Below are positions 1 through 64,000 of a stretch of DNA of 64,000 nucleotides, piece after piece. The stretch is from Candidatus Lindowbacteria bacterium RIFCSPLOWO2_12_FULL_62_27. GTDB lineage: Bacteria; Lindowbacteria; 2-12-FULL-62-27. A program made the position numbers and the translations under genes. Within the stretch, counting starts at the first letter, position 1. Each line of letters opens with the position of its first letter. The stretch lies in contig MFPR01000002.1 in NCBI GenBank assembly GCA_001784175.1, forward strand, positions 46,221 to 110,220, read 5' to 3'. The notes beneath the pieces are model-generated. The model was given only the letters and a program-made list of their open reading frames with translations, was not told where the DNA came from and ran no database searches.

Positions 1-3000
1 TCCAAAGCGGTCGAGCGGTTCGGAGACGAACGTATACACGCCGGGCGTGTCCAGCGTGAAGAGCCTGCTCCAGGCCTTGGCGCCGGACGCCTCGTAGAAG
101 GCGAACTGCGCGCCGGCGTCTGGGCCCTTGACGCCGACGCGGATGCGGACGATGTCATTGGGGGACGCGTCGGTGTCGGCGGCGACGCCGTTGATGAGGA
201 TCTGCGCGGCGTTGACCTGGGTACCGGTGGCCGGCGTGTTGATCCTGGAGCTGAGGGTGCTGCGGACGAATTTCTGCTTCTGCAGAGGCGCGATGAGGGT
301 GGTGTCGATGGTGAGGACGTTGTTGACCGAGTCAAAAATCTTGATCCTGACCGTAATGGGCAAAGACTCGGCGGCGGCGTAGTGGAAGGCCCAGTAGTAG
401 GTGTCGTTGGCGGTATTATCGGCGACATCCTCGTCGACGAGCGGGAAGATGAGCGTGCCGACCTTCGTCGCGACCACCTTGCTCGATCCGGGGAACCGGA
501 CCTCGTTGGCGCCGTTGTAGACGTAGGGATTGGTGTCGGCGACGTGCGCGAGCATGACCTTGTCGGCGCCGAGGGTGTATCTCCACGCGTAGAGGCCATC
601 GGGGTCGTCGACCCAGAAATCTCCGGCGACGCCGCCGAAGGCGCCCGGATAGTCATCGTTGATGTGATAGGAATCGGCGGCCTCCTCGTCCAGGAGCCCG
701 TCGCGGTCGTTGTCGACGCCGTCCCCGGCCACCATGGCGGGCATGTCTGACATCCCGTCGGCCGCGATGCTGACGCGGACGGCCGTGACGCGCGTGCGGC
801 GGGTGACGTTGCCGTTGGGGATGGTGGCGTCGGCGACGCCGTGGATGCGGAGGCCGAAGGTGTCCTGCGTGATCTGGACGGTGGATGAGGGCTTGCTGGA
901 GTCGATGGTGAAGACGACCGTATCGTAGGCGGTGTTGCCCATCCCGTCGGTGGCGCGCACGACGAAGGTCCAGACGCCGTCGGCGAGGTTGAGGGTCGAG
1001 AGCGCGAAGGAGAACATGGCCGCGCCGGTATCGGGCGAAGCGAAGAGCTGGAAGGATCCGGCGTCGGGCGCGACGGCATTGCCGGCCTTGACGGCGTACT
1101 CGAGTTTGGCGATGCGCCCGTTGTCGGACGTGACGCCGCGGATGATGGTGAGCGGGATGCTGGTGTCGGCGGTGACGGTCGAGTAGAGGCCGGCGAACTG
1201 CGTAACGGCGTTTTGTTGTGTCACAAGATTTTTGACCCCCGTGATGGACCCGCCGGTGTTGGCGGTGGCGAGGAGGAGGTTGGGGTTCTTGACGGATCCG
1301 GAGAGGTCGATGGCGTCGACGACGATATTGGACAGCTTGGCTTCGGAGGTGGCCTGCGGCATCGCCTCGGGCTTTTCGTCTTCGGCGCGTCCCAGCGACA
1401 GGAGGAGGATGCGCCGGTTGGTGGCGGTGGCGTTGGTCCGGATGAGGGACACGGCGTTGTTGATGGCCGATGGCAGGAAGGACTGAACGCCGGTGATGGT
1501 GACATTGTCGTTGATGGACCGCTTGAGCAGGTCCTTGTCGGCCGTGAACGTCTGGAGGACCTTGATCTGGGTCGGGTCGCTGAAGGACACGATGGCCGCC
1601 CGGACCTTGGCGGGCATGCCGTCGATGATGCCATTGGCCACGACCTTGGCGGCCTGCAGGAGCGAGATCGTGTCGGAGGACAGGATGCCGAAGACGTTGG
1701 ACATTCCCGTGGTCGCGTCAAAGACGATCACGACGTCGAGCGGGTTCGTCACGATGGCTTCGGGGAAGATGATATTGGAGAGCAGCGCGCCGTCGCCGGG
1801 GAAGGTGATGTCGACGGCGGGCGGCGTGAAGTCGCTGACGCTGGTGATGCGGGCGGACGCGGCCGACAGGCGCGCGCCGAGCGTCTGGGTGGCGTCCTCG
1901 AAGATGATGTCGTTGGGTTCCAGCCTGACCACGAACGCGTCGTCCCGGCCGATGGTGGAAGAGGTGCGGATGAGGACGAAGAAGTCGTTCCCGGCGAGCG
2001 GCCCGAGGTCGGTGTCGGGAATGGCCGAGTCGGCGGCGCCGGCGGCCCGAACCTGGAGGGTGGTGCGGTAAGCGCCGCCGAATCCGGTCCAGGTGATCGG
2101 CGCGGTGACGGGCAGGATGCTGTCGGCCGCGTCGTAGAGGCCGGTTTCGGCGCCGTTGTCCACAGCGATCGCGATGCCGGACTCGGCGTGGAGATCGGAC
2201 GGCGAAAACCCGCCGAGGTCGTCAATCCGCACCGTGACCTGTTTGAGGTAGGGACCTGTCGTGTCGTCCCGGACGTTCAGGCCGAAGACCGAGACGTACC
2301 CGGATGCGCTCGGGACGGCGGTGTCGGACGGAATGACCGACGCCAGTTTCGCCGAGATTTCGAACAGGACCGTGTCCGTATAGACGGCGGCCTGCGGGAA
2401 GACGCCGTTATTGAGCACGATGCCTCCGGCCGGAATGTAGGCGCGGAAGGACTCCTTGTATTTTGCCGACGCGCTGGTGCGAATAGCGACGAAGAAGTCG
2501 GCGCCGGCGTCGCTGATGGTCGTGCCGGTCGGCAGAAGGGCCGGGTTGTTAAGCGAGATGGTGAAGGTTTCAGCCTTGTCCCAGGTCGGCAGTCCGCCGA
2601 GGTCGAGGCGCTGATCGAATGGATCGAGCTGTCCCTGGATGAGGCCGTTGTCCTGATAGATCGAGATGCCGCTCGCGTTCGTGTTCGAGAGCGCCGCCAA
2701 GTCCATGCTGTCGAATCCGCCGCTCTTGTCGAAGGCCACCTTCACGGACTGGAGCCGGCCGCCGCCCGAGGGATCGGAGATGTCGAGCCCGAAGAGCGCG
2801 AGGGAATCGGAAGGCACGGGGACGCTGCCGGAGAGCATGGGCGTCGGGACGACGCTGATGCGCGGTTTGACGGTGACGGTCACGGCCGTGTCCGTGACGT
2901 TGCCGGCCGCGTCCTTGATCCGGAGATTTACGGTGAGGACGGACTTGCCCGATGTGTTCAGGTAATAGGCCCAGCGCGCGTGGCTGTCTGGCAGAGACCC

Positions 3001-6000
3001 CCGGGCGATGTCCTCGTCGACCAGAGGATAGAGGACGGCGCCGGTCGGCGTCTGAACGCCCCGGGTGCGGCCCTCGTTCAACACCATGTTTCTGCCTGTG
3101 TACTTGACGAACGGCACGCTTTCCGCGACGTCCATCAGGAAAATCTCGTCGATGCCCGGCTCGAAAATCCCAGCAAGGCCGATCGGGTCGTCCGCCCAGA
3201 AGTCGCCGGCGGCGGCGGGCCCGAAGACGTTGAGCCAGTCGTCGTTCATATTGGGCGAATCGGGCGCCTCGTCGTCCATGATGCCGTCGCTGTCGTTGTC
3301 CTTGCCGTCTCCGGACATGATGGTTTTCTGGAATGTGACGCCGCCGTCGAGGCTGACCTCGACGGACGAAACGCCGGAGACGATGCCGCGCGGCGAGGAG
3401 GTCGCGTCGGCGAGTCCGGCGAGCCGCAGGGATCCGCTGTCGTCGTTGACCTGCAGGGTGGTGGTGGGCTTGGTGGAGTCGAGGGTGAAGAGGACGGTAT
3501 CGGTGGATTCGTTGTTTTTCTCATCGCCCGCCGTGATTGCAAAGACGTAATCGCCGTCGGCAAGCCCGAAGGACGAAACGGGGATCGCGAAATTGGCGGT
3601 GGGACCCAGGTTGATGGGCAGGGAGAAGGGTCCGAAGTAATTCGCCGGGTTGGCCTTTTCGGCGTACCGGTACTGGATGCGGTTGACGGCGACGTTGTCC
3701 GAGGCCGACCCTTCGATCTTGGCGGTTCTCGACACCTCGGTGACCACGGTCGATGAAATTCTCTCCGCGATCGCGGCCAAAGCGTCCGGCAGGTTCAGCA
3801 CGGTTTTCGTCTGGGAGGTGGTGATGGATCCGAGCAGACCGAAACTCGTGGTGGTGGTCACGGTCTTGCTCACGTACAGGTCAAAGGCCGACCCGCCGGT
3901 GGCGTTGGCCAGCGGCAGCAGTTCCTTCTCATTGTCCGGCGTGAGATCCAGTTTCAGGCTGAGTTCGCTGATGACGAAGACCGACACACCGGCGTTGGCG
4001 ATGGTGTCGGCCACGTCAGTGATTTTCAATTTGCTGAGGCCGTCGCCGTCCGACACGTCGTGGGTGGAGGCGTCGGTAACGAGCACGAAGAACCTGCGGC
4101 TGCCGGACTGGAAGGGCAGCCCGAGGGCGGCGGCGAGGGCCTCGAGGGCGGATTCGGCGGGAATGACGCCGTCCGGCGTGGCCTTGGGATCGCTCTTGGC
4201 CGTCAGGGTCAGGACGTTGTTCTGGAACCGTGAGAGGTTGGAAGTGATCCCGAAATTGACGAGCGACGGCGAGTCGACCTTCTCGTCCTTGAACGTGATC
4301 AGTCCCAGATTGACGGACAGGCCGCTGTTGATGAGCGTCTGATAGAAGGCGGCGACGCTGTCGCGGAAGAGGTCGATGTGCGCCTGCATGCCGGTGGTGA
4401 TGTCGAACACGAACACGACGTCCGCGATGGCCGCCGCGGCCGCCGTCAGGTTGTTCGTCATGATGGTCTTGGCGGTCGGGAACGTGACGGAGATCGCGGG
4501 CGGCAAAAGATCGACGGCCTTGGAGGCGACGATGGTTTTGCTCACGGCCGATTTCTGGCTGGCGCCGGAATCGAAGTGGACCGCGCCCGCGTCCAGGGCG
4601 ACCTTGAACTGGTCGCCGATGCTGAGGCTGTTGGAGGTGCGGACGACCACGAAGAAATCAGCGCCGGCGTAGGTGTCGTCGTCGTCGTGCGGCAGGGCGC
4701 GTCCGGCGGCGGGCAGGACGAGTTTGTATTCGTAGTTGCCGCTGGCGTTGATCTTGACGTTGGTCACGCTGGAGGCCAGAGAGACGAGGAGACTGTCTTT
4801 GGTCCGGTCGAAGACGCCCGTGTCGGTCCCGGCGGCGGTGCTGGTGCTGTCGAGCCAGAGTTCAACGGCGTAGAGGTCCTGGATGGAGAAGTTGGCGACG
4901 GGGATGAGGGTGACGATGATGGAATCGAGCCGCAGCCCTTTGCCGAGGTCGCTGATGTTGAGGCCGAAGATCGCGCGCGTATCGTCGAGGGTCATTGAGT
5001 CGCCGGCGACCGTAGTGTCGATGATCGCGAGTTTGGGCAGGATGCGGATGCCCTTGAGCGCGTCGGTGGTGTCGGCTGCGGTGGCGGGCCCGTCGCTGAA
5101 CTGGACGCCATTGGCCGGGATATTGAGGGTGAATGAATCGCCGGGCGTGGTGTTCGGGGAGGTGCGGATGACGACGAAGAAGTCGGCGCCGGCGTCGATG
5201 CCGGTATCGGACGACGGGACAGCTTGGGGCGTCGAGAGTGCGACCGTGATGGCGTGTCGGCCCTGCGTGGGCGTGTTGGGCATCCAAGCCGGCGCGCCGC
5301 CGACCGTCATGAGCTGGTCGAGCGCGTCGAGGGACCCGTCGACGACGCCGTTGTCCTTGTAGATGGACACGCCGTTTTTGATGAGGACCGGCTGGAGGAT
5401 CGAGTTCATGTTGGTGTCGGCCTCGATCGTGATCGCCTGGAATGTCTTGCTGGACGTGCCGATCATATTGAGCGCCCAGAGCGCGATGCCGGGGCTGGAA
5501 TCGTCGATGCTGGCCGGCGAGAGGTCCGATATCTGGAGTTCGACGGAGAACGCGAACGCGTAGGTGAGCGTGGCGGTGTTTCCGGCGTTGTCCTTGAGGG
5601 CGACGGTCAGCGTGTAGGTATCGTTTTCGGAGATCTGGTCGATCGGGTCGGCCGCGAGATCAATATAGAAGGTATCGGCCGCGCCGAAGTTGTGGACGCT
5701 GCCGTTGGCTTTGACGACGCCGGCAGAGTTCTTGAGGGTGACGGTGCTGAGGACGGTGTCGCCTCCGCTGGCGACCACGCGATTGGCGTCGACCAGGAAA
5801 TAGGAATCGGTGACCTGGACCACCACGCGGTCGATCGATTTGCCGTAGGGCGTGGTCGAGATCTCGCCGTCGACGCCGCCGCTCCGTATCTTGACGGACG
5901 CGACGCGCGGCGCGGTGTCGTCGAAGAGGATGGCCGTCCGGGTGTCCTCCGACTTGTTGCCGCTCAGGTCCTCGAGGTGGAACCACAGGGCCGCGCGGGC

Positions 6001-45000: not shown

Positions 45001-48000
45001 GTAGGTGTCGCTTTCGTCGATGGCGTCGATGATGTTGGCGCCGGCCAGCGGGATGGCGATGCTGTCGGCGCCGGCGGTGTTCGCGGCGCCGATGACGGTC
45101 GAAAGGACGCTGCCGTTGCCCCGCGTGAGCGTCACACGGGACACGCCGGTGTCGACGCCCGAAAACGCCAGGACGTTGGGGTTCGAATCCGACAGCACGA
45201 CCCAGATGAGGTCAATCGCCTGCGATACGATGCTGTCCGAGGCCGAGATGACCTTCGGCGCGCCGCCCGCGCGGACGTTGAACGACGTGGCGCGCGCGAC
45301 GGTGTCGTCGAACAGAATCCGGGTGCGGGTGTCCTCGGTGACGTTCCCGGCGCTGTCCTCCATATGGAAGACGAGGGCCTGCCGGGCGTTGGTGACGTTG
45401 ATGAAGGTCAGGGTGTCGGCGGCGGCCGTCAGGTTGAGGGTCTGCGCGACATCCACGCCGTCGTTGTAGACGTCGTTGTTGTTCATGTCGGTGATCAACC
45501 GCGCCCGGCTCGTCGCGCCGCTCAGTTTCAGGCCCGCCGGAAAGTCCGTGATCGAATACGTAAATACGGTGGTCCGCGTCGTCCCGCCGGTGTCGGGCGA
45601 CAGCGCCGACAGGACCGGGCCGGCGTTGTCATAGGAGAATTTGCGGGCGAGCTGGAAGATGTTGCCGTTGTTGTCCCGCGCCACGGCCGAGGCCTGGTAG
45701 ATGCCCGGCGGGGGCGTGCTGTCGGTGAGCCAGAAGTAGGCGCGGTTGCCCTTCTTGAATTTCGTGCCGGTGATCGTCGCGCCCGTGGTGGTGTTGATGA
45801 GCGTGAGGATGTCGCTCGTGGCGGTGTCGATCCCGGCGGTGTAGCCGCTGAGAGACGTGTCGACGAACTCGACGCTGAGGGTGTCGAGTTCGGTCGAGAA
45901 GGCCTCGTTCTCCTCGATCGTGTCGTTGATCGTCCCGCTCAGGCTGTCGCCCCGGTACCAGTTCCAAGCCGAGGGGAAGGTCATGTCGACGATGAAGAGG
46001 CGGGTGTCGTTCAGGATGTTCAGCGCGTGGTCCCGCGTGCGGAATTCGATCAGGTAGGTATCGTCGTGCAGGCCGGTCTTGGACAGGGCCAAAAAGAAGG
46101 TCAGGGTGATCTTGGAATCCGACGTTGCGACCGACAGCGTCCCGCCGATTTCGACGTCGACCGAATCGATGATGTTGTTGCTGTTCTCGTCGCGCCAGAC
46201 CTTGGCGTAGGAGACCCCGCCCTGTGTCGTCAGCCGGCCGTCGATCTTCGTCAGGTTGTCCGACGCCGTCACTTCGACCTTCGTCAGGCCGTTTTGCGTG
46301 TCGTTGACGACGGTCGTCGCCGGCGCCAGCGCCGAGATGCTCGGCTTCGTCTGGTCAAACACAAACGTCTTGTCGTCCGGGTCCGTGCCGGTCGTGGCGT
46401 TGGCCTCGAAGTTCCCCGCTGCGTCGACGGCCTGCGCCTGCACTTTGTACGTGCCCTCGCCGCCGGCGGTCAGGGTCGCGGACGGAATGACGGCCGAATA
46501 CGTGTCATAGCCGAGGCTCTGCCAGTTGGAGACGGTGTCGGCCGACTCGATGTAGGAGCCGAAGGTGCCATCGGGATTCTGGACCCGGATCCGCGCGCGC
46601 CGCATCTCGCCCGAGGGCGTGGACCGGCCGAAGACAATGAGGGGGCCGGCGTTGAAGGGACTGGTCTGCGAGCCGCCCTGGACGATGATGGTCTGAACGT
46701 CGGCGTCCGGCGAGAGGGTGTCGATGCGGAAGAAGGTGAATTGATCTTCGGCCCGGACCTCGACTGAGGTCAGGTTGACGTCGCTGTCGGCCGTGTCCGC
46801 GGTCACGACGCCCATGACCGAGACTGTGTCGATCCGCGTGAAGAGTTTGGTGAGATCGCCGGTTACCGCCTGGCCGACCTCCGTGCCGGTGTCAAGCGTG
46901 ATCGTGTCCTCGAGGCCCCCGCCGCGGACCACCACGCGCGTCTGCGTGTCGATCTTGTCGCCCCGCACGATCACCACGATCGGGCTGGCCCGCGGCAGAA
47001 TCGAATCGCCGCTCACCGCAACGCCCGTGTCGCCCACGCCCTTGAGATTGACGCTCCCGCCGCTCGAGATGCTCTGGTTGCCGTCCGTGTCGGTGGCGCG
47101 GGCGAAGACGACGTTGAATCCCTGGCTGAGCGGGATGGTGGTCGTGAACGCGCCGGACACGGACGCGGTGACGCTCACTGCGAAAATGTCGTTCACCGAG
47201 ATGTCCACCACCGCGCCCGGATCGGCCTGGCCGGTCACGATCGAACTCGTCGCGGACAGCGACAGGTTATCGGCCGTCAGAATCTTGGGCGCGGCCGGAC
47301 GCTTGTTGTTGATGACGACTTCGCCGCCGGCCGTGAGAACCTCGCTGGTCGTGCCCTCCAGCGCGGTGATCTTCCAGAAATAGGTCTTGATGGCGGCCTG
47401 CGACAGATACACGCCGGCGTTGTCCTTGCCGAAAAACACGAAGGATTTGCCCGCCGGATAGACGTTCAGGGTGTGGCTGTCGGTGAAGACGGGGGCGGTG
47501 TCGTTGGCGTTGGCGAAGATCTGGAAGGTGACGGTCGACGTATTTTCGGCGCCGTCCACTTTGTAGCCGATCGACGCAAAGTCATTTTTCCCGTCGGCCA
47601 GAATCGGCGAGATGCTGGTCGGGGTGAGGGCGACGTTGGTCAGCGAGAACGGCGTGTTGTCGATCCGGACCTCCGCGCTGGCCTCGGCGGTGAGGCCGTG
47701 CCCGTCCGCGGTCTTGACGACGACCCGGTACAGGCCGTCGGAGAGCTTCGTGCCCTTGTTGCCGTCCCACGTGACGAGGGCGTCCGTCACGTCGCCGGTC
47801 ACCTGGTTCAGGGTCTTGACGAGCGCGCCGGTGGCTTTCGAGTAAATCTCAACCCGGCTGGTCGCGGCGCCGATCGTCGAGTACCGGATGGTCGTTGCGT
47901 CCTTGTCGCCCGGCGTGACTTCGGGGCTGAAGGGGCTGGGCAGCGGAGACTGCGTGATGGTGACGACCGGCGGCACCTGGTCCTTCACGCCGGTCACCGT

Positions 48001-51000
48001 CACGTTGGTCTTGTTGCCGCTCTTGTCCGTCACCCGGATCTCGAAGGTGTAGGTGTCGTCCAGCACCAGATTGCCGTTGATATCTTTTCCGTCCCACACG
48101 ATCACGTTCTGGCCCGCGCTCTGGGACACGCCGGCCGCGGTCGGCGCCGTGTCGATGAAGGTTCCGTCGCTGGCCTTGATCACCACGAGGGCGGTGTCGA
48201 CGGTTTCGTTCAATACATATTTGACGGCCGCGCCGTTTCCACCGAACACCGCCGGGTCGACCACCGCGTCCGAAATCACGGGTGCCGTCACGTCCGCGAT
48301 CCCCGTGTCGTACCGGATCACCAGCGTGTCGCTGGTGGGGCCGGTGTTGCCCGCCGCGTCCACGGCGTAGGCCACGATCCGCCAGTCGCCCAGCGTGTCG
48401 CCGAGCTGCGCGAAGTTGATCGTCCCCAGCCACGATGACGCGCCCGACGCCTGGCTGTCCATCCGCGCGACCGTTTCCGACGCGCCGAAGTCCGCGCCCG
48501 GCAGATAGACGCGCACGAACACTTTCGCGACGCTTCCGGTCGTGTCGGTCGCCACGCCCGTGACGGCGATGGGGCCGACGTTGAACTGTGCGTTCTGCGC
48601 CGGCGTCACGATCCGCGCCTGCGGCAGGTCCTTGTCGAAGATGAAGGTCGCGGTTTCGGACATGAAGTTGCCCGCGGCGTCGATGGCCGTCACCACGATC
48701 GTGCAGACGCCCGCCTCGACCGCGAGGTCCAGGATGTTGCCGCCGACGAGCTGCCGGCCCATCGTGTCGGTCGCGGATTCGAAAACGAACGAGCCGACTT
48801 TCTGGTTGGCCGCGTTGTAGAAGGTCACGGTCGTGGTGTCGTTGTAGCCGGTCACGTCCGTCGTGTCGCCGTTCGTGCTCGGGGCGGTGTCATCGAGGTC
48901 GACGCCGGCGAAAATTACGCTGTCGTTGTAGGCCCGCGTCGCCACGAAAACCTCCTGAATCCCCGATCCGGTCGCGGTCACGGGAATGGTCTCCGTGACG
49001 CTCACGCCGGATCCGTGGACGATCACAAAATTCTGCCGCGTGGGTTTGACGGTGTCGTACCGGATGATTCGCGTGTCTTCCTGGACGTTGCCCGCGCGGT
49101 CGACCACGCGGACCCACAGGGCGTAGTCGCCGTCCTGCGTGCCGTTGGTCTGCCGGCCCAAGCTAAGCGTGCTGACGTCGATGGCGCCGGGGGTGCCGCT
49201 CGCGTTGAGGTTGAGGGCGGTGACCGCCTCGCTGAACGTCGCGTCGCCGTTTTCGTCCCAGATCCACCGCAGTTGCGGCGGGGTGTCGGCGCTGACGCCG
49301 GTCACGGTGTCGCCGACGCGGATCACGATGTTGTCCAGCTTGGGCGTCTTGGCGCCGGTGTCGGGCGAAATCGAGAAGAACGGCAGTTGCGCGTCGTACC
49401 TGAAGGTCCGCTTCTCGCTCTTCTGGTTGCCCGCGCGGTCGAAGGCCGTGATCTGGACCTCCAGCTCGCCGCTGACCGGCGTTGAGTCGGTCAGCCAGAA
49501 AATCGCCATCGAATCGCCGGCCGTGCTCACAACGCCCGCCACACTCTGGCCCGTGGTCTTGTTCGTGGCGCTGATCGAACTGCCGGCGAGGTTGATCCCT
49601 CCGTTGAATTTGAAGCCGATGTCCGTCGCGACCTGGCTGGAGGAGTCGGTGAGCAGGATGACGATCGAGTCGATGACCTGCGTCGCGCCGAAGATCTGGC
49701 CCTCCGCGATGGTCGCGCCGCTGCCGCGCTCGTTCACATAAAAATTGCTCCCGATTACGGCCGGACCCACGCTGTCGACCACGAAGGAGTCGGTCAGGGT
49801 TGCGGTGTTGCCCGCGTTGTCCGACACCACGACGTACACGCCGTAGACGCCGTCCTTGCGGCCGTCCGGCGCGATGTCGAAGACGAGGTCCATCGTGACC
49901 TGATCGCCGGGCACCGGGCCGTTGTGACTCAGGACAATTCCGACGCCGGCGCCGGACGGGTCGACCAGCCGGCCGGTGCCGGTGGTGGTGTTGATGTCAA
50001 CGCCGGAATTTTTCTGGCCGGTCACGGGCGCGGCCGGGTCGGTGAACTTCAGGCGGACCTTGCCGACGGACGTGCGGACGGTCGTATCGAAACTCGTGAG
50101 GGTCTTCGAGCCGGCCGCCGTGTCGTCCACGATGAGGAATCCGGCGCTGATGAAGGCCGGCGCGGTCTGGTCCAGCGTGAACTCGAACGCGGCCGAGGTG
50201 TCCTGGTTGCCCGCCTCGTCGACGGCGACCGCTTCGACCTTGTAATCGCCGTCGCCGCCGGCCAGCAGGTTCGCGTTTGGCAGGCGCGCCACCCACGTGT
50301 CAAACGCGCCGCCCGACACGGCCGTGTCGGGGTTGTTGAGGCCCGCAAAGTCCGTCGTGCTGACTCTGACGGTTGTCTTGTTCGGCAGCGTTACCACAAC
50401 GTCGACGCGCTTGAGGCCGCCGGTCTTGCCGGCCGGGGTGCTTCGGCCCAGAATCAGGATGTCTTCCGACGGGTCCTGGATGCTCTTGCCGTTGAAGGGA
50501 CCGACCTGCCCGCTGGCCTCCTCTCTGGCCTGCGTGACGCTCGGCAGGGGTGCGACATTGTCGAGCCGTAAAAAGACGAATTGATCTTCCGCGCGCACTT
50601 CGAGTGAAAGGCCCGTCGCGTCGCTGTCGCCGGATTTGACGCCGATGGTGTCGAGCCGGCTGAAATTTATGTTGCCGGTCACGGCTTGGCCGATGAGCGT
50701 GCCTGTGTCGATCACAATCGTGTCCTGCAGCGACCCGCCGCCGACGACGACCACCGTGCGCGTGTCGACGTTCGAGCCTCGCACGATCAGGACCGCCTTG
50801 CCTGCGCGCGGCAGAACCGTGTCGCCGCCCGACTCCACCCCGATCACGACGCCGCCTGACGTGTCCGCGCCGGCCATGCTGACCTGCTTGCCGCTTCGCA
50901 CGCTCTTGTTGCCGACCGCGTCGGTCGCGGTGGCGTAGAGGGCGTTGTCGCCCTGCGCGATCGTGACGGTCGCGCTCCACGCGCCGGTGGTGGCGTTGGC

Positions 51001-54000
51001 GGTGGCTGTCGTGACGTCGGAGCCGTTCAGGTTCACGGTCACCAGCGCCCCCGCCTCCGCCACGCCGCTGACCGTCTGGCCCGTGAGGGCGGTGGCGAGG
51101 TTGTCGGGCGTGAATATCTGCGGGGCGTCCGGCCGGGCGTTGTCGATGGAGACGTTGCCGCTGGCGGTCAGGATCTGGCCGTTGGAATTGTCGATCGCGG
51201 TGACTTTCCAGTAATAGGTCTTCGTGGCGCTCGGACTCAGGATGACGCCGGCGTCGGTCTTGCCGCGGAAAATGAACGACTTGGCCGCCGGGTAAACGTT
51301 GACGGTCACGCTGTCGTTAAAGACCGCGACGGTGTCGCCGGGATTGGCGAATACCTGGAAGAGCGCCGACGCGCTGTCCTTGGCGCCGTCCATCTTGAAG
51401 CTGATCGTGGTGAAATCGTTGACTGCGTCGCCGTTCTCGGGGCTGATGGTCGCCGGGCTCATGGCGACGTTCGTCAGGCTGAAGGGCGTGTTGTCGATCT
51501 CGACCTCGGTCGAGACTTCCGACGTGAGGCCATGCCCGTCCACCGCCGTGACCACGATCCGGTACTGGCCGTCCGGTTGAGGCGAAGCCGCGCCGCCGCC
51601 GTCGAGGGTGACCAGCGCGTTCGTCACGTCGCCGGTCGGCGCCGCGTACGACGTGAACGTGACCTTCGCGCCCGTGACTTTCGAATAAACGTCCACACGG
51701 CTCGTGACGGCGCCTATCGTGCTGTACCGGATCGTCGTCACGTCGTCCTCTCCCGGCGTTGCGGCGGGACTGAACGGGTTCGGGATCGCGCTCTGCGTCA
51801 GAGTCACCACCGGCGCCACCTGGTCCTTGATGCCGGCCACCGACACGCTCGCCTTGTTGCCGCTCTTGTCCGTGACGCGGATTTCAAACGTGTAGGTGTC
51901 GTCCAGCACGAGATTGTCGTTGATATCTTTTCCGTCCCACACGATCGCGTTCTGCCCGGCGCCCTGGGAGAGGCCGACGGTCGGGACCGAATCGATGAAC
52001 GTCCCGTCGCTGGCCTTGATCACCACAAAGGCCGAATCGACGGACTCGTTCAATACGTATTTGATCGTCGCGCCGCCCGCGCCGAACACGGCCGGGTCGA
52101 CCACGGCGTCGCCGATCTGCGGCGCCGTGACGTCCGTGATGCCGGTGTCGTACCGGATCGTCAGCGTGTCGCTGAGCGCGCCCGTGTTGCCGGCGGCGTC
52201 GACGGCGTAGGCCACGATCTTCCAGTCGCCCAGCGTGTCGCCGAGGAGCGTGAAATTCACGGTGCCGAGCCAGGAGGCGGCGCCCGAAGCCTGGCTGTCC
52301 TGTTTCAGCTTCGTGATCTGGCCGAAGTCGGTGTCCGGAACGTACACGCGCACGAACACCTTCGAGACGCTGCCGACCGTGTCGGTTGCGGATCCGGTGA
52401 CCGAGATCGGGCCGGCGTTGAACTGCGAGTTCTGCGCCGGCGTCGTGATCCGCGCCTGCGGGTTGTCCTTGTCGAACACGAAGGTTGCGGTTTCGGCCAT
52501 GAAGTTTCCGGCGACGTCGACGGCGGTCACGACGATCGTGCAGATTCCGGCCTCGGCCGCCGCGTCCAGGATGTTGCCGCCGGACAGCAGCCTTCCCATC
52601 GAGTCGGCGGCGGCGTTGAAGTCGAACGTGCCCACTTTCTGGTTTGACGCGTTGTAGAAGGTCACCGTGGTCGTCTCGTTGTAGGCCGTGACGTCCGTCA
52701 CCCGGCCGCTCTGGCTCGGCGTTGTGTCGACGAGGTCGACGCCCGCCAGCACCACGCTGTCGCCGTAGGCTCGCGTCGCCACAAAGACCTGCTGGGCGCC
52801 GGACCCGGACGCGGTCACGGGGATCGTCTCGAAAATCGTCGCGGACAGGCCGTGGGCCAGAATGAAATCGACCCGCGTCGGCTTGACGGTGTCATAGCGG
52901 ATGATTCGCGTGTCTTCGAGAATATTGCCCACGCGGTCGACCACCCGCACCCACAGGGCGTAGTCGCCGTCCTGGGTGCCGTCGGTGAGCCGGCCGAGCG
53001 AGAGGGTGCTGACATCGATGGCGCCCGGGGTGCCGCTCGCGTTGAGGTTGAGGGCGGTGGCGGCTTCGGTGAAGGCGCTGTCGCCGTTTTCGTCCCAGAT
53101 CCACCGAAGCTGCGGCACGGTGTCGCCGCTCACGCCGGTCACGGTGTCGCCCACGCGAACCACGATGTTGTCCAGCCGGTTCACCTTGGCGGCGGTGTCG
53201 GGGAAGATGGAGAAGAACGGCAGCTCCGCGTCGTATTTGAACGTCCGCTTTTCGCTCCGCTGGTTGCCCGCCTGGTCGAAGGCCGTCACGAGGACCTCGA
53301 GGTCGCCGCTGACCGGGGTCGAGTCGGTCAGCCAGAAGACCACGAGGGAGTCCCCGGCCGTGCTGATGACCCCGCCGATGCTCTGGCCGGTCGTCTTGTT
53401 CGTGACGCTGATGGAACTGCCGGCGAGGTTGATCCCGCCGTTGAATTTGAAGCCGAGGTCCGTCGCGACCTGGCTCGAGGAATCGGTGAGCTGGACGACG
53501 ATCGAGTCGATCTGCTGGCTCGCGCCGACGATCTGGCCCTCCACGACGGTCGGGCCGCCGCCCCGGTTGTTCAGATAGAAATTACTGCCGATGATGCTCG
53601 GACCCACGCTGTCGATCACAAAGGAGTCGGTCAGCGTGGCCGTGTTGCCCGCGTTGTCGGCCACCACGATGTAGACGCCGTAGACGCCGTCCTTCTTGCC
53701 GTCCCCGGCCACGTCGAAGACCAGGTCCAGCGTGACGGCGTCGCCCGGGGTCGGGGCGTTGTTGCTCCGCACGATCCCGACGTTCGCGCCCACCGGATCG
53801 ACCAGCCGGGCGCCGCTGGTGGTCGTGTTGATGTCGACCCCCGCGTTGTTCTGGCCTGCCACGGGCGCGGCCGGGTCCGTGAACGTCACCTTCACGCGGT
53901 CGACGCTCGTCCGGACGGTCGTATCGAAACTCGTCAGGGTCTTGGAGGCCGTGCCCGTGTCGAACACCACGATCTTGCTCGTGCTCGCAAACGCCGGCGC

Positions 54001-57000
54001 CGTCTGGTCCAGCGTGAACGTGAAGGACGCCGAGGTGTCGCGGTTGCCGGCGTCGTCGATCGCGACCGCCGCCACGACATAGTTGCCGTCCCCGCCGGCC
54101 ACCAGGGTCGAGTTGGCGATGCGGGCAATCCACGTGTCGAAGGAACCGCCCGCGTTCGTGTCCGGGTTGTTGATCCCGCCGAAGTCCGCCGACTTGACGG
54201 TCACCGTCGAGTTGTTCGGCAGCGTCACGAGAAGCTCCACGCGGTTCAGGCCGCCGGTCGCGCCCGCCGGGGTGCTCCGGCCCGAAATCAAAATGTCCTC
54301 GGTCGCGTCCTGCGTGCTCTTGCCGTTGAAGGGACTGACCTGCCCGCTCGCCTCCTCCTTCGCGGTCGTGACGCTCGGTTTCGGCGCGACGTTGTCGAGC
54401 CGGTAAAAGACGAATTGATCTTCGGCGCGCACTTCGAGTTGGAGCGTGTTGGCGTCGCTGTCGCCCGGCGCGACGCCGATCGTGTCCAGCCGCGTGAAGT
54501 CCACAGCGCCGGTCACGCGCCGGCCGATGGTCGTGCCCGTGTCGATGACGATCGTGTCCTCAAGGCCCCCGCCGCGAACGATGACCGTCGTCCGCGTGTC
54601 CACGTTCGAGCCTCGCACGATCAGCACGACCTTGCTCGGACGCGGCAGCGCCGTGTCGCCGCCCGCTTCCGTGCCGATCGTCACGCCGGTGGTGTCCACG
54701 CCTTTCAGGCTGACCTGCTTGCCGCTCCGGACGCTCGTGTTGCCGACGGTGTCGGCGGCCGTCGCGTAGAGGACGTTGTCGCCCTGCGAGATCGTCACGG
54801 TCGCGCTCCAGGCGCCGGTCGTGGTGTTCGCGGTGACGGTGCCGACGTCCGCGCCGTTCAGGTTGACGGTCACCAGCGACCCGGCCTCGGCCTGGCCGCT
54901 CACGGTCTGCGCCGAGGCGGACACGGCGAGGTTGTCCGGCGAGAAAATCTGCGGCGGGTCCGGCCGCTGGTTGTCGATGTTGATGTTGCCGGCGGCGGTC
55001 AGGACCTGTCCGTTGCCGCCGTCGATGGCGGTGATCTTCCAGTAATATGTTTTCGTCGTCCTCGGACTGAGAATCCCGCCGGTGTCGATCTTGCCGCGGA
55101 AAATGAACGTCTTGACGGCCGGGAACACGTTGATGGTCAGGCTGTCGTTGAAAACCGCGGTCGTGTCGGTGGGGTTCGCGAACACCTGGAACCGCACGGT
55201 CGCGCTGTCCTTCGCGCCGTCCGCGGTGAACCGGACGGTCGTGAAGTCGTTCTGGGCGTCGGCGTTTTCGGGGCTGATGGTCGTCGGGCTGATCGATACG
55301 CCGGTCAGCGAGAATGGCGTCACGTCGATCTCCACCTCGCTCGCCACCTGCGCCGCCAGGCCGTGCCCGTCCACCGCCGTTACGACGATGCGGTACAGGC
55401 CGTCCGGCGGCGTCGTCGCGCCGGTTCCGGTCCATGTGACGAGCGAGTCCGTGACGTCACCCGACACGCTGAACACGGTGGCCGCAAGCGCGCCGGTCGT
55501 CTTCGCGTAGACCTCCACCCGGCTCGTCACCGCGCCCACCGTCGTGTACCGGAGGGTTGTGACGTCGTCCTGGCCGGGCGTGACGCCGGGGCTGAACGGA
55601 TTGGGAATGGGCGACTGCGTCAGCGTCACGACCGCCGGCACCACGTCCTTCACGCCCTGCACCGTCACGCTCGTCTTGTTGCCGCTCTTGTCGGTCACGC
55701 GGATTTCAAAGGAATACGTGTCGTCCAGCACGAGATTGCCATCCACGTCTTTTCCGTCCCACACGATCGCGTTCTGGCCCGCGCCCTGCGCCACGCCGTT
55801 GGTGGGCGCCGTGTCAATAAACGTGCCGTCGCTGGACTTGATCACCACGAGCGCGGTGTCGACGGCTTCGTTCAATACATATTTAATGGCGGCGCCGGCC
55901 GCGCCGAACACGCCCGGATCGACGGCGGCGTCGCTGATGATCGGCGCCGTCACGTCCGTGATGCCGGTGTCGTAGCGGATCGTGAGCGTATCGCTCAAAG
56001 CGCCCGTGTTGCCGGCCGCATCCACTGCATACGCGACGATCTTCCAGTCGCCCAGCGTGTCGCCGAGGAGCGAGAAATTGACGGTACCGAGCCATGAGGC
56101 GGCGCCGGACACCTGGCTGTCCTGTTTCAGCTTCGTGATCTGGCCGAAATCGGTGTCCGGAACGTAGACGCGCATGAAGACCTTGGCGACGGTGCCGGTC
56201 GTGTCGGTGGCGACGCCGCTGATGGCCGTGGGGCTGACGTTGAACTGCGTGTTCTGGGGCGGCGCCACGATCCGCGCGATCGGCAGGTCCTTATCGAAGA
56301 CGAAGGTCGCGGTTTCGGCCATGAAATTTCCCGCGGCATCGACGGCCGTGACGACGATCGTGCAAATGCCGATCTCGCTCGCCGCGTCCAGAATCGTCCC
56401 GCCCGTCAGGTACCGGCCCATCGTGTCGGGAATCGCCTGCGACACGAAGGCGCCGACCTTCTGGTTGGCGGAGTTGTAGAAGGTCACGGTCGTGGTGTCG
56501 CCGTAGCCGGTGACGTCGGTCGTGTCGCCGTTCGGGCTCGGCGCCGAGTCGACAAGGTCGACGCCGGCGAAGATCACGCTGTCGTTGTAGGCGCGGGTCG
56601 CGACGTAAATCGTCTGGCCCAAGGCGTCGGTCGTCGCCGTGACCGGGACCGTCTCGGTCACGGTCGCGCTGGCGCCGTGGACGATCAGAAAGTCCTCCCG
56701 GCGCGGCTTGACGGTGTCGTACCGCACAATCTTCGTGTCCTCCGTCACGTTGCCGGCCCGGTCGGTCACGCGGACCCACAGGGCGTAGTCTCCGTCCTGG
56801 GCGCCGGTGACCGCGCGGCCCAGGCTGAGGTTGCTCGTGTCGATCTGGCCGGCGGCGCCGCTCGTGTTCAGAATGAGGGTGGTGACGGCCTCGTCGAAGG
56901 TCCCGTCTCCGTTTTCGTCATAGATCCATATCAATTGCGGCGACGTGTCGGGACTGACGCCCGAAACGGTGTCGCCGATGCGCACGACGAGGTTGTCCAG

Positions 57001-60000
57001 GCGGTTCACATTTTTTCCGGTGTCGGGCGAGATCGTGAAGAACGGCGCCTGCGCGTCGTACTTGAAGGTCCGCTTTTCGCTCCGCTGGTTGCCGACCTGG
57101 TCGAAGGCGGTGACGTTGATTTCAAGCTCGCCGCTCACGGGCGTTGAATCGGTGAGCTGGAAGATCAGGAGGGAATCGCCGGCCGTGCTGCTCGTGCCGC
57201 CGATGCTCTGGCCGGTCGTTTTGTTCGTCACGCTGATCGAACTGCCGCTGAGGTTCACGCCGCCGTTGAATCCGAAGCCGAGGTCGCCGGCCACTGAACT
57301 TGACGAGTCCGTGATCTGGAGGGCGATGGTTTCGATGGTTGAATTTGCGCCGAAGATCTGGCCCTCGTCGATCACCGAACCGCCGCCGCGGTTGTTCACG
57401 TAGAAGGCGCTTCCCACGATCCGCGGACCCACGCTGTCGATCAGGAAAGAGTCGGTCACGGCGGCGGTGTTGCCCGCGTTGTCCGCCACGATCACGTACA
57501 CGCCGTAGACGCCGTCTTTGCGGCCGTCGCCGCTCACGTCGAAGATCAGGTCCATCGCGACTTCGTCGCCCGGCGTCGGGCCGTTGTTGCTCCGCACGAC
57601 GCCGACGTTCGCGCCGCGCGGGTCCACCAGCCGGCCGCCGCTGGTGGTGGTGTTGATGTCGATGCCCGCGTTCTTCTGGCCTGCCGTGGGCGCCGCGGCG
57701 TCCGCCAGTTTCACCCGCACCTTGCCGACGCCCGACCGGACGGTCGTGTCAAACGGCGTCAGCGTCTTGGAGGTCGTGCCGCTGTCCGGATCGACCGTGA
57801 TGGCCCCGGTCGCGGCGAGGCCCGGCGCGGTCTGGTCCAGCGTAAAGGTGGAGGCCGTCGAGGAATCCTGGTTGCCGGCATTGTCGATCGCCACCGCGAC
57901 GATCTGATAGTCGCCGTCGCCGCCGGCCAGCAGGGTCGAGTTCGGAATCCGGACCACCCACGTGTCGAAGGAGGCGCCCGCACCCGTGTCCGGATTGTTC
58001 AGGCCGGGGAAATCCACCGACTTGATCGTCGACGTCGCCTTGTTTGGCAGCGTCACCACCAGTTCCACCCGGCTCAGGCCGCCCGTCGTCCCCGCCGGAG
58101 TGCTGCGGCCGAGTACCAGCACGTCCTCGGTCGCGTCCAGCGTGCTCTTCGCGTTGAAGGGGCTCACCTGGCCCGACAGCTCCTCCCGCACGGCGGTGAT
58201 GGTCGGTTTCGGCGCGACGTTGTCAAGCCGGAAAAATACGAATTGATCCTCGGCGCGGACTTCCAACTCAAGTCCGGCCGCGTCGCTGTCGCCCGATTTC
58301 AGGCCGATCGTGTCCAGCCGGCTGAACTCCACGCTGCCGGTGACCGCACGGCCGATGGGCGTGCCCGTGTCGATCGTGATCGTGTCCTCAAGTCCGCCGC
58401 CGCGCACAATTACCACCGTGCGCGTATCGACGTTCGAGCCCCGCACGATCAGGACGGCCTTGCTCGACCGCGGAAGTATCGTGTCGCCGCCGGCGGCCAC
58501 CGCGATCGCCACGCCGGCCGTGTCGGCGCCTTTCACGCCGACCTGCCCGCCGCTTCGCACGCTCTTGTTGCCGACGGCGTCCGTCGCCGTGGCGTAGACG
58601 ATGTTGTCGCCCTGCACGATGCCCACGGTCGCGCTCCAGGCGCCGGTCGTCGCGTTCGACGTGATGGTCGCCACGTCCGAGCCGTTCACGTTGAGCGTTA
58701 CGAGCGCGCCGGCCTCGGCCGAACCGCTGATGGTCTGGCCGGTGGCGGACGTCGCGAGGTTGTCGGGCGTGAAAATCTGCGGGGGATCGGGGCGCTCGTT
58801 GTCGAGGTTGACGTTGCCGCTGGCGGTCAGAATCTGGCCATTGCCGCCGTCGATCGCCGTGACTTTCCAGTAGTATGTTTTGGTCGCGTTCGGGCTCAAG
58901 ATGCCGCCGGTGTCGATCTTGCCCCGGAAGATGAACGATTTCGACGCCGGAAAGACGTTGACGGTCACGCTGTCATTGAAGACCGCGGTCGTGTCGGTCG
59001 GGTTCGCAAAGACTTGGAATCGTATCGTCGCGCTGTCCTTCGCGCCGTCCGACGTGAACCGGATGGTCGCGAAATCGTCCTGGGCGTCGCCGTTTTCGGG
59101 GCTGATGGTCGCCGGCGTGATCGATACGCCCGTCAACGAGAACGGCGTGATGTCGATCTCCACTTCGCTCGAGGCTTCCGACGTCAGGCCGTGGCCGTCC
59201 ACGGCGGTCACGACGATCCGGTAGAGACCGTCCGGCGGGGTCGGCGCGCCGGAACCGGTCCACGTCACCACCGAGTCGGTCACGTCGCCCGCCACGTTGA
59301 CCAGCGTCGCGATCAGCGCGCCCGTCGTCTTTGCGTAGACCTCCACCCGGCTGCTCACGGCGCTCACGGTCGTGTAGCGGAGGGTCGTCACGTCGTCCTG
59401 GCCCGGGGTGGCGGGCGAGGGACTGAACGGATTCGGAATGGGCGATTGCGTCAGCGTCACCACCGGCGGCACCACGTCCTTGACGCCCTTCACGGTCACG
59501 CTGGTCTTGTTGCCGCTCCGGTCGGTCACCCGGATCTCGAACGAGTAGGTGTCGTCCAGCACCAGATTGCCGTTCACATCTTTTCCGTCCCACACGATCA
59601 CGTTCTGGCCCGCGCCCTGCGTTACGCCGTTGGTGGGCGCCGTGTCGATGAACGCGCCGTCGCTGGCCTTGACCACCACGAGGGCGGTGTCGACGGTTTC
59701 GTTCAATACATATTTAATGGCGGCGCCGCTTGCGCCGAACACGCCGGGATCGACCACGGCGTCGCTGATCTGCGGCGCCGTCACGTCGGTGATGCCGGTG
59801 TCGTACCGGATCGTCAGCGTGTCGCTGAGCGCGCCGGTGTTGCCGGCGGCGTCGATGGCGTACGCGACGATCTTCCAGTCGCCCAGCGTGTCGCCGAGGA
59901 GCGTGAAATTGACGGTGCCGAGCCAGGAGGCCGCGCCGGAGGCCTGGCTGTCCTGCTTCAGTTTCGTGATCTGGCCGAAGTCGGTGTCCGGAACGTAGAC

Positions 60001-63000
60001 CCGCACGAAGACTTTGGCCACGCTCCCGGTCGTGTCGCTCGCGATGCCGGTGACGGCGATGGGACCGATGTTGAACTGCGTGTTCTCGGCCGGCGTCACG
60101 ATCCGGGCCTGCGGCAGGTCCTTGTCGAACACAAACGTCGCGGTTTCGCTCATGTAGTTGCCCGCGGCGTCGGCCGCCGTCACCACGATCGTGCAGACGC
60201 CGACCTCCGACGCAAGGTCGAGGATGTTGCCGCCGCTCAGTTGCCGGCCCATCGTGTCGGCGCCGGCCTCAAAGACGAATGAGCCGACTTTCTGGTTGGC
60301 CGCGTTGTAGAAGGTGAGGGTCGTGGTGTCGTTGTAACCGGCGACGTCCGTGACCCGGCCGTTCGGGCTGGCTGCGGTATCGACGAGATCGATGCCGGCG
60401 AACACCACGCTGTCATTGTAAGCCCGCGTCGCCACGTGGACGGTCTGGAGGCCGGAACCGGTCTTCGCCACCGGGATCGTTTCGGTCACGCTCGCGCTCG
60501 CGCCGTGTACCAGCACGAAATCCTGCAGGGTGGGTTTCACCGTGTCATAGCGGAGAATCCGCGTGTCCTCGAGGATGTTGCCGGCCCGGTCGGTCACTCG
60601 CACCCACAGGGCGTAATCGCCGTCCTGCGTGCCGCCGGTCGCGCGGCCCAAGCTGAGCGAGCTCACGTCGATCTGTGCGGCGACGCCGCTCGCGTTGAGG
60701 GACAGGGTCGTCGCCGGCTCGGTGAAGGCGCTGTCGCCGTTTTCGTCCCAGATCCATTTCAGTTCCGGCGGCGTGTCGGAGCTGACACCCGTGACCGTGT
60801 CGCCCACCCGGACCGTAATGCTGTCCAGGCGGTTCATCTTCGCGCCGGTATCCGGGGAGATCGTGAAGAACGGCAGTTGCGCGTCATATTTGAACGTCCG
60901 CTTCTCCGTGCGCTGGTTCCCCGACTGGTCAAAAGCCGTCACCTGCACCTCGAGGTCGCCGCTGACCGGTGTCGAGTCCGTCAGCCAGAAAATCACCAGC
61001 GAGTCGCCGGCGGTGCTTACCACGCCCGACACGCTCTGGCCCGTGGTCCTGTTCGTCGCGCTGATGGAACTGCCGGCGAGGTTGACCCCGCCGTTGAATT
61101 TGAAGCCGAGGTCGGTCGTGACCTGGCTCGATGAGTCGGTGAGCTGGATGACGATCGAATCGATGACTTGTGTCGCGCCGAAGATCTGGCCCTCCGAGAG
61201 GGTCGAGCCGCTGCCGCGCTCGTTCAGATAAAAATTGCTCCCGACCACGGCCGGGCCCACGCTGTCGATCACGAAGGAGTCCCGCAGGGTCGCCGTGTTG
61301 CCGGCGTTGTCCGACACCACGATCTGCACGCCGTAGACGCCGTCCTTCTTGCCGTCGCCCGCCACGTCGAACACGAGGTCCAGCGCGACCTGGTCCCCCG
61401 GCGTCGGGCCGTTGTTGCTTCGCACGACGCCGACGTTCGCGCCGGCCGGATCGATCAGGCGAGCGCCGCTCGTGGTCGTGTTGATGTCGAGGCCCGCGTT
61501 GCTGTGGCCGGCGACGGGCGCGGCCGGGTCCGTGAACGTCACGCTCACCTTGCCGACCGCCGTCCGAACGGTCGTGTCGAAACTGGTGAGGCTCTTGAAA
61601 CCGCTGCTGGTGTCGTGAACGATGATGAAGCCGGTCGTCGCGAACACCGGCGCGGTCTGGTCCAGCGTGAAGGTCGAGGCGGTCGAGGAGTCCTGGTTGC
61701 CGGCGTTGTCGATCGACACCGCCACCACCTGGTAATCGCCGTCGCCGCCGGTCACCAGCGTGGTATTTGCGATGCGGACGATCCACGTGTCGAACGCGCC
61801 GCCCGAGACGTTCGTGTCCGGATTGTTGACGCCCGGAAAGTCGGTGGACTTCACGGTCACCGTCGTCTTGTTCGGCAGCGTCACCACCACGTCGACCCGG
61901 TTGAGACCGCCGGTCTTGCCCGCCGGGAAACTCCGGCCGGTGACGAGGATGTCCTCGGTCGCATCCTGCGTGCTCTTGCCGTTGAAGGGACTCACCTGGC
62001 CCGACAGCTCCTCCCGGATCGCCGTGACGCTCGGTTTCGGTGCGACGTTGTCCAGCCGGAAAAAGACGAATTGATCCTCCGCGCGCACCTCGAGCTCCAA
62101 CCCGGTCGCGTCGCTGTCCCCCGATTTCACGCCGATCGTGTCCAGACGGCTGAACTCCACGCTGCCGGTCACCGACTGGCCGATCAGCGTGCCGGTGTCG
62201 ATCACGATCGTGTCCTCCAGCGCGCCGCCCCGCACGATCACCGTCGTACGCGTGTCTACGTTCGAACCGCGCACGATCAGCACGACTTTCGAAACCCGCG
62301 GCAGGATCGTGTCGCCGCCGGCCTCCGTGCCGATCGCTACGCCGGTGTCGACGCCGGCCATGCTCACCTTCCGGCCGCTCCGCACGCTCTTGTTGCCCAC
62401 GGTGTCGGTCACGGTCCCGTACACGATGTTGTCGCCCTGCGCGACGGTCAGGGTCGTGCTCCACGAGCCGGTTACGGCGTTGGCGCTGACGGTCGTCACG
62501 TCCGAGCCGTTCAGGTTGACGGTCACCTGAGCGCCCGGCTCCGCCAGGCCGCTCACCGTATGGGAGGTGAGGGCGGTGGCGAGGTTGTCCGGGGTGAAAA
62601 TCTGCGCGGCCGCCGGCCGCTGGTTGTCGATGTCGACGTTGCCGCTCGCGGTCAGGATCTGGCCGTTCGAGCCGTCGATCGCGGTGACCTTCCAGTAATA
62701 TGTCTTCGTCGCGTTCGGGCTTAGAATCCCGCCGGTGTCGGACTTGCCCCGGAATATGAACGTCCGGATGGCCGGGAAGACGTTGACGGTCACGCTGTCG
62801 TTGTAGACCGCCGTCGTGTCGGTCGGGTTCGCAAAGACCTGGAACCGCACCGTCGCGCTGTCCTTCGCGCCGCCCACCGTGAATCCGATCGACGCGAAAT
62901 CGTTCACGGCATCGCCGTTCTCCGGGCTGATCGCCGTCGGGCTGATCGAAACGCCGGTCAGGCTGAACGGCGTAACGTCAATCTCTACTTCGCTCGAAAC

Positions 63001-63999: not shown

Positions 64000-64000
64000 C

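Follow-up and report, generated by a model that had tools for sequence, protein, structure and literature searches.

The DNA analysed here, referred to as the window, encompasses 64,000 nucleotides of a bacterial genome (C2:46,221-110,220 of G000, a 4.39 Mb assembly in 44 contigs with an estimated completeness of 94%) and lies inside a giant gene. Read on the minus strand from base 63,999, the window contains 0 stops in 21,333 codons, and the remaining five frames hold between 61 and 1,246 stops over the same stretch. Around 517 stops are expected from the base composition, and the probability of finding none is around 10^-227. The GC content at codon positions 1, 2 and 3 (~0.58, 0.47 and 0.89) is steady over the length of the gene, and since it is coherent from end to end the frame is taken to be coding throughout. 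The single stop-free frame that an earlier note had described in this DNA is thus borne out, and its 21,333 gap-free codons form one uninterrupted open reading frame beyond the 20 kb that defines a bacterial giant gene. Self-similarity between diverged copies spans nearly all of the frame. Only four tandem repeats, all weak and short, are found in the window at the DNA level, which makes a collapsed-repeat assembly unlikely within it, and an Rfam search of the window gave no match.

The body of the encoded protein consists, by profile and self-comparison, of hundreds of Ig-like beta-sandwich domains arranged in super-repeats of ~1,278 aa. The Pfam families Big_13, FlgD_ig, Big_3_2 and Big_6, together with related Ig-like families, are matched in almost every 1,000-aa piece. 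Five von Willebrand factor A (VWA) domains form two clusters, one in the middle and one near the C-terminus; the MIDAS metal-ion motif, of the DxSxS type, is intact in three of them and degenerate in the two near the C-terminus. Stretches that lack a Pfam match are filled by an unnamed beta-domain of ~165 aa, termed U, of which an HMM built from the copies finds 21, seven of them making up the N-terminal head and fourteen placed as pairs around the VWA clusters. In the order of the gene, the features of the window (numbered within it), followed by the two flanking genes (numbered on their contigs), are:

1..63999, minus strand: internal 21,333 codons of the giant gene (frame scan)
59704..63534, minus strand: super-repeat copy 1, ~1,278 aa of tandem Ig-like domains, the best preserved on C2 (BLAST of the module against the protein)
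55873..59709, minus strand: super-repeat copy 2, 78% identical (BLAST)
52051..55878, minus strand: super-repeat copy 3, 80% identical (BLAST)
48211..52056, minus strand: super-repeat copy 4, 76% identical (BLAST)
44941..48216, minus strand: diverged super-repeat copy, 41% identical (BLAST)
43942..44928, minus strand: U pair (HMM)
43447..43845, minus strand: VWA 1, MIDAS DLSLS at 43,827 (Pfam VWA_2, E 6e-16)
41383..42399, minus strand: U pair (HMM)
39688..40677, minus strand: U pair (HMM)
39046..39570, minus strand: VWA 2, MIDAS DVSGS at 39,552 (Pfam VWA, E 1.7e-20)
37099..38115, minus strand: U pair, the first resembling the GH33 sialidase N-terminal domain in predicted fold (HMM and model)
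36568..36993, minus strand: VWA 3, MIDAS DITGS at 36,978 (Pfam VWA_4, E 3e-16)
34525..35538, minus strand: U pair (HMM)
4516..5541, minus strand: U pair near the C-terminal end (HMM)
3883..4419, minus strand: VWA-like 4, degenerate MIDAS DITTG (Pfam VWA_4, E 0.002, below cut-off)
1843..2856, minus strand: U pair near the C-terminal end (HMM)
1273..1737, minus strand: VWA 5, degenerate MIDAS DATTG (Pfam VWA, E 5.6e-5, at cut-off)
C2 ~42,300-43,770, minus strand: PorV/PorQ-family outer-membrane barrel fused to a TolB-like part
C40:31,314-37,760, minus strand: upstream operon gene of at most 2,148 codons

More diverged copies of the super-repeat continue down to around window position 5,500. Several EF-hand-like DxDxDG loops are present, mostly beside the VWA clusters, for which calcium binding is plausible and is not claimed here. 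The protein is acidic, with a pI of 4.4. In a simple hydropathy scan, the signal peptide described below is the one strongly hydrophobic segment; the other short matches have the appearance of beta-strands, and no further membrane-anchor segment is seen. The sequence contains no HExxH motif and no SLH domain detectable by Pfam.

The description of the frame in the earlier note as open at both ends reflects the cut of the window and a scaffold gap, and extension of the contig, which the note had proposed, provides the stop but not the start. Beyond the left edge of the window the frame runs for 798 more codons to a TGA at C2:43,824-43,826, 2.4 kb away, and the C-terminus of the protein reads ...GVYLMRLEINGKVQIVPIAVVK. 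At the right edge, just beyond base 64,000, the window is abutted by an 18-N scaffold gap (C2:110,221-110,238). An identical 11 bp, CGCGGTCCACC, is found on both sides of this gap and represents an overlap left unmerged by the assembler. Taken literally, the gap would give rise to an apparent frame break in the annotation. Once the overlap is merged, the frame goes on as ...LHYVAVDRAGNVLEDT... for 145 more codons to the contig end, and the part on C2 (110,685 bp) comprises 22,276 aa with a mass of 2.33 MDa. We infer the merge across the gap; in the unmerged form, the gap-free frame still spans the whole window.

The start is not found on C2 and probably lies on another contig, C40. This was the one further contig recovered when the genome was searched with the upstream end, and it carries the same repeat in an open frame of 10,454 codons; the search found neither other contigs of the genome with the repeat nor a small contig filling the gap between C40 and C2. 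From an ATG at C40:31,317, which forms an ATGA overlap with the stop codon (TGA) of the preceding gene, the frame runs for 10,439 codons with no stop and leaves the contig at its left end within a super-repeat. It begins with a signal peptide, recognized by inspection from a K/R-rich start, a hydrophobic core and an A-x-A site, and the same is seen on contig C42 of a related genome, G002. On the ~1,278-aa super-repeat, C40 ends around position 445 and C2 begins around position 964, so that the part lost between them amounts to no less than ~520 aa and may hold complete modules in any number besides. The two parts sum to 32,715 aa and 3.41 MDa. We strongly infer from these sequences that the C40 frame is the 5' part of the gene in the window, across an unsequenced junction. 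Both the end of C40 within the same super-repeat and an ortholog in G002, split in the same manner and with the same flanking genes, suggest a single gene that encodes 32,715 aa (3.4 MDa) or more, or at least ~33,200 aa once the missing repeat of at least ~520 aa is counted. The mass of over 2 MDa given in the earlier note is supported, with 2.33 MDa on C2 for this repeat protein of secreted type, and would rise to ~3.4 MDa with the putative 5' part.

Genome G002 belongs to the same family but another genus, and carries the ortholog in two halves on contigs C42 and C6, both of which break at a contig end within the repeat. Its N-terminal half (C42) is 58.6% identical to the N-terminus on C40 over 3,329 alignment columns, and its C-terminal half (C6) is 57.5% identical to C2 17,251-20,865 and 44% identical to the last 940 aa. 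The upstream neighbours in G000 and G002 are orthologs of one another (66%), the one in G002 containing PLD-like, fibronectin III and lamin-tail domains. In both genera the next gene after the giant one encodes a PorV/PorQ-family barrel with a TolB-like C-terminal part, and two genes further downstream are also common to both (54% and 48%), appearing ComEA- and ComEC-like by inspection. This split ortholog with matching neighbours is the main argument for treating C40 and C2 as one locus, although the synteny is also compatible with two adjacent giant genes. Between copies within the gene, dN is 0.15 and dS 0.55, whereas between the orthologs the values are 0.36 and 1.14 at the N end and 0.52 and 0.99 at the C end, synonymous distances near 1 being approximate. 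By such codon comparison, the frame has been maintained as protein, and the super-repeats have been duplicated and have then diverged under purifying selection. A scan of genome contigs with the C-terminal query found no relative, nor was one found among viral contigs.

The fold of the repeat was modelled with AlphaFold on the first half of the super-repeat, using twelve copies from the window, and is predicted as a string of beta-sandwiches (pLDDT 82). The best Foldseek match is 6xi3, an extender repeat of a large adhesion protein (E 2e-11), and the matches also include 4p99, the extender of the ice adhesin MpAFP, and 7ptp, an in-situ pentameric S-layer protein. With VIA-align, SiiE and the grappling-hook protein GhpA of Aureispira are found at Z 9.6-10 (9.7 for the GhpA fragment); many Ig-like proteins have a similar Z, and these matches are therefore read as fold class and not as kinship. 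Both the profiles and the model thus point to the long tandem array of Ig-like beta-sandwiches that characterizes extender adhesins. The RTX extender adhesins MpAFP (1.5 MDa), MhLap and SiiE likewise consist of tandem Ig-like beta-sandwiches that are predicted to extend a binding region. In contrast to these, the giant protein has more than twice the mass, its repeats are highly diverged rather than identical, its C-terminal tail is of the FlgD-Ig type and it lacks an RTX nonapeptide array: one isolated GGxGxD occurs in 32,715 aa, and none near the C-terminus. An RTX adhesin secreted by the type I route was rejected on the absence of this C-terminal array.

The U domain gave no match in a Pfam search, even at E 10, and a sequence search of the PDB returned antibody matches only, which are attributed to chance. 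Its predicted model has a pLDDT of 68 overall, and of 73-91 over most of the domain that is matched by the N-terminal, non-catalytic domain of GH33 sialidase (Z 12.4, 2.8 A over 143 residues, 18% identity). This match clearly exceeds the unrelated entries. A GH33 sialidase as such was considered and rejected, since the catalytic BNR propeller was not found and the scanned pieces gave no sialidase match in Pfam. The domain also occurs in six genomes of other, distant lineages, in surface-type ORFs of 559 to 2,903 aa (loci L174-L178), and two of the five such ORFs that were inspected end in an FlgD-Ig-type tail.

A similar tail closes the giant protein, where the C-terminal 96 aa score 20.1 bits with FlgD_ig (cut-off 27), 14.9 with CHU_C (cut-off 27) and 15.9 with the type A T9SS model TIGR04183 (cut-off 23). 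Further proteins in each of the three genomes of the phylum close with the same tail, which every time ends exactly at the stop codon. The downstream PorV-family gene of G000 matches NF033709 at E 1e-12, with 48 bits against a cut-off of 90. A SprA-like ORF of 1,826 aa is present in G000 (E 6e-20, 70 bits against a cut-off of 200) and also in G001 (E 5e-13); Pfam SprA_N gave no match in the three genomes, in a search run with no positive control. Collectively, these sequences are suggestive of a diverged type IX-like export route. Surface proteins of the T9SS, such as GhpA and the SprB-type adhesins (PMC11205867), share with the giant protein a signal peptide and an Ig-rich body, and the likeness extends to a C-terminal beta-domain that recurs in many of the genome's proteins, to a neighbouring gene resembling PorV and to an ORF resembling SprA. 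However, no component here reaches its curated cut-off, and the size is far larger.

Other large ORFs are found in the same genome. A second giant ORF on its contig C6 (C6:153,699-181,043, plus strand; L185/L186) has 9,114 codons, is closed at both ends and carries an FlgD-Ig tail, and ORFs of 4,500-5,500 codons with CHU_C tails are present on C14, C24, C28, C34 and C6. A GC-rich, palindromic REP-like element occurs on C40 near 31,270 and at C6:180,407-180,493. Each copy is read in frame as part of a giant gene, within the N-terminus in one case and close to the C-terminus in the other, and the two are translated in different frames.

Taken together, the architecture and models suggest that the window is probably the interior of a giant gene for a secreted, extender-type surface adhesin, with its 5' part on C40 and a type IX-like mode of export. 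The protein would first be exported by the Sec route and would then cross the outer membrane in a type IX-like manner, with its FlgD-Ig-like tail being read and the PorV-like barrel encoded downstream being used. At the surface it would form a stiff rod, with the VWA and lectin-like domains available for contact with other cells or glycan surfaces. For MpAFP, a rod of ~0.6 um has been proposed for its ~120 repeats of 104 residues (PMC4083281), and at the same rise per residue, as a matter of arithmetic, the giant protein could reach up to ~1.6 um. A bolder and more tentative version, possible but below an even chance, is that a single chain of ~33,000 residues or longer passes in one piece through a diverged type IX-like translocon, in a phylum of which very little has been sampled; it would then be by far the largest cargo of this route and give a micrometre-scale fibre in which the inner repeats expand fast while the ends and the operon are conserved between genera.

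Several other explanations bear on whether there is a single gene and on what it does. It is unlikely that two giant genes lie side by side, one running from C40 to an end in the gap and the second starting in the gap and continuing on C2; the junction is unassembled, and unequal recombination between super-repeats could yield such neighbours, but in two genera no C-terminal tail is seen on the N-terminal half and no signal peptide on the C-terminal half, each of the four halves is open to a contig end within the repeat and no further contig of the genome carries it. Even then, the gene around the window would exceed 22,276 codons. An assembly artefact, in the form of a chimeric frame or an over-expanded repeat, is very improbable. 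Although the assembly is fragmented, a scaffold gap falls exactly at the right edge of the window and local mis-joins are conceivable among the first four super-repeats with their 76-80% identity, the copies differ by at least 20% in protein, DNA tandem repeats are almost absent, the frame and codon statistics are unbroken and both ends are collinear with the ortholog of another genus.

With regard to function, a structural coat or sheath, S-layer-like and possibly cut into pieces after export, is unlikely: the grouping of VWA and lectin-fold domains in clusters is suggestive of binding heads and Pfam detects no SLH domain, even though such a role would suit a very large, acidic protein of mostly uniform Ig domains with 7ptp among its Foldseek matches. 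Also unlikely is a predatory surface weapon with which the bacterium would break down the wall or glycans of other cells, a role that has been proposed for giant ORFs of the Omnitrophota. The size, the five VWA domains, the sialidase-like fold of U and the PLD-like domain in the upstream operon gene all fit such a weapon, but the part of the sialidase that U matches is non-catalytic, HExxH is absent and Pfam finds no catalytic domain in the C40 part or in the window, where one piece on the 20-kDa scale is left only at the borders between the searched pieces.

The earlier note had also pointed to the Omnitrophota and had placed the gene among the largest bacterial coding regions. The first of these does not hold for the host, whose phylum comprises only three genomes of the 97,973 in the genome set, when the Omnitrophota already had 276 species in 2023 (PMC10066038); an RpoB query gave only matches of 51-62% in many phyla, mostly Bacillota and Actinomycetota. 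The size claim agrees with published giants of 36,805 aa in Chlorobium chlorochromatii (PMC6837184; an adhesion role is mentioned in PMC10066038), 39,678 aa in V. archaeovorus, where 42 transmembrane helices are reported (PMC10066038), and up to ~85,800 aa (as quoted in PMC12057145, which cites West-Roberts). The giants of the Omnitrophota likewise have tens of thousands of codons, secreted surface-type repeats and few annotated domains in an uncultivated lineage, whereas the gene described here belongs to a different phylum and has an Ig/VWA architecture. By hydropathy scan, the multiple transmembrane helices of the V. archaeovorus protein are not seen, and unlike most Velamenicoccia giants, which are called poorly conserved (PMC10066038), the gene has a sister-genus ortholog with the same neighbours. 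The C. chlorochromatii giant, compared by description only, is alike in size class and suspected adhesion role but differs in phylum. The gene is thus a member of the class of reported giants and not a record, with precedents for both its size and its kinds of domain, and its interest lies in the unusual size, the conserved operon and the candidate export route.

If the join holds, this would be among the longest bacterial coding regions known, outside the groups that are usually cited for giant genes. With its N- and C-terminal ends, super-repeat and flanking genes defined, the question of how repeats expand while the frame is kept becomes testable, as do the export and anchoring of a protein longer than a typical cell and the nature of its binding target. 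The locus offers concrete candidates for export, in the PorV-like neighbour and the SprA-like ORF, together with a widespread unnamed domain.
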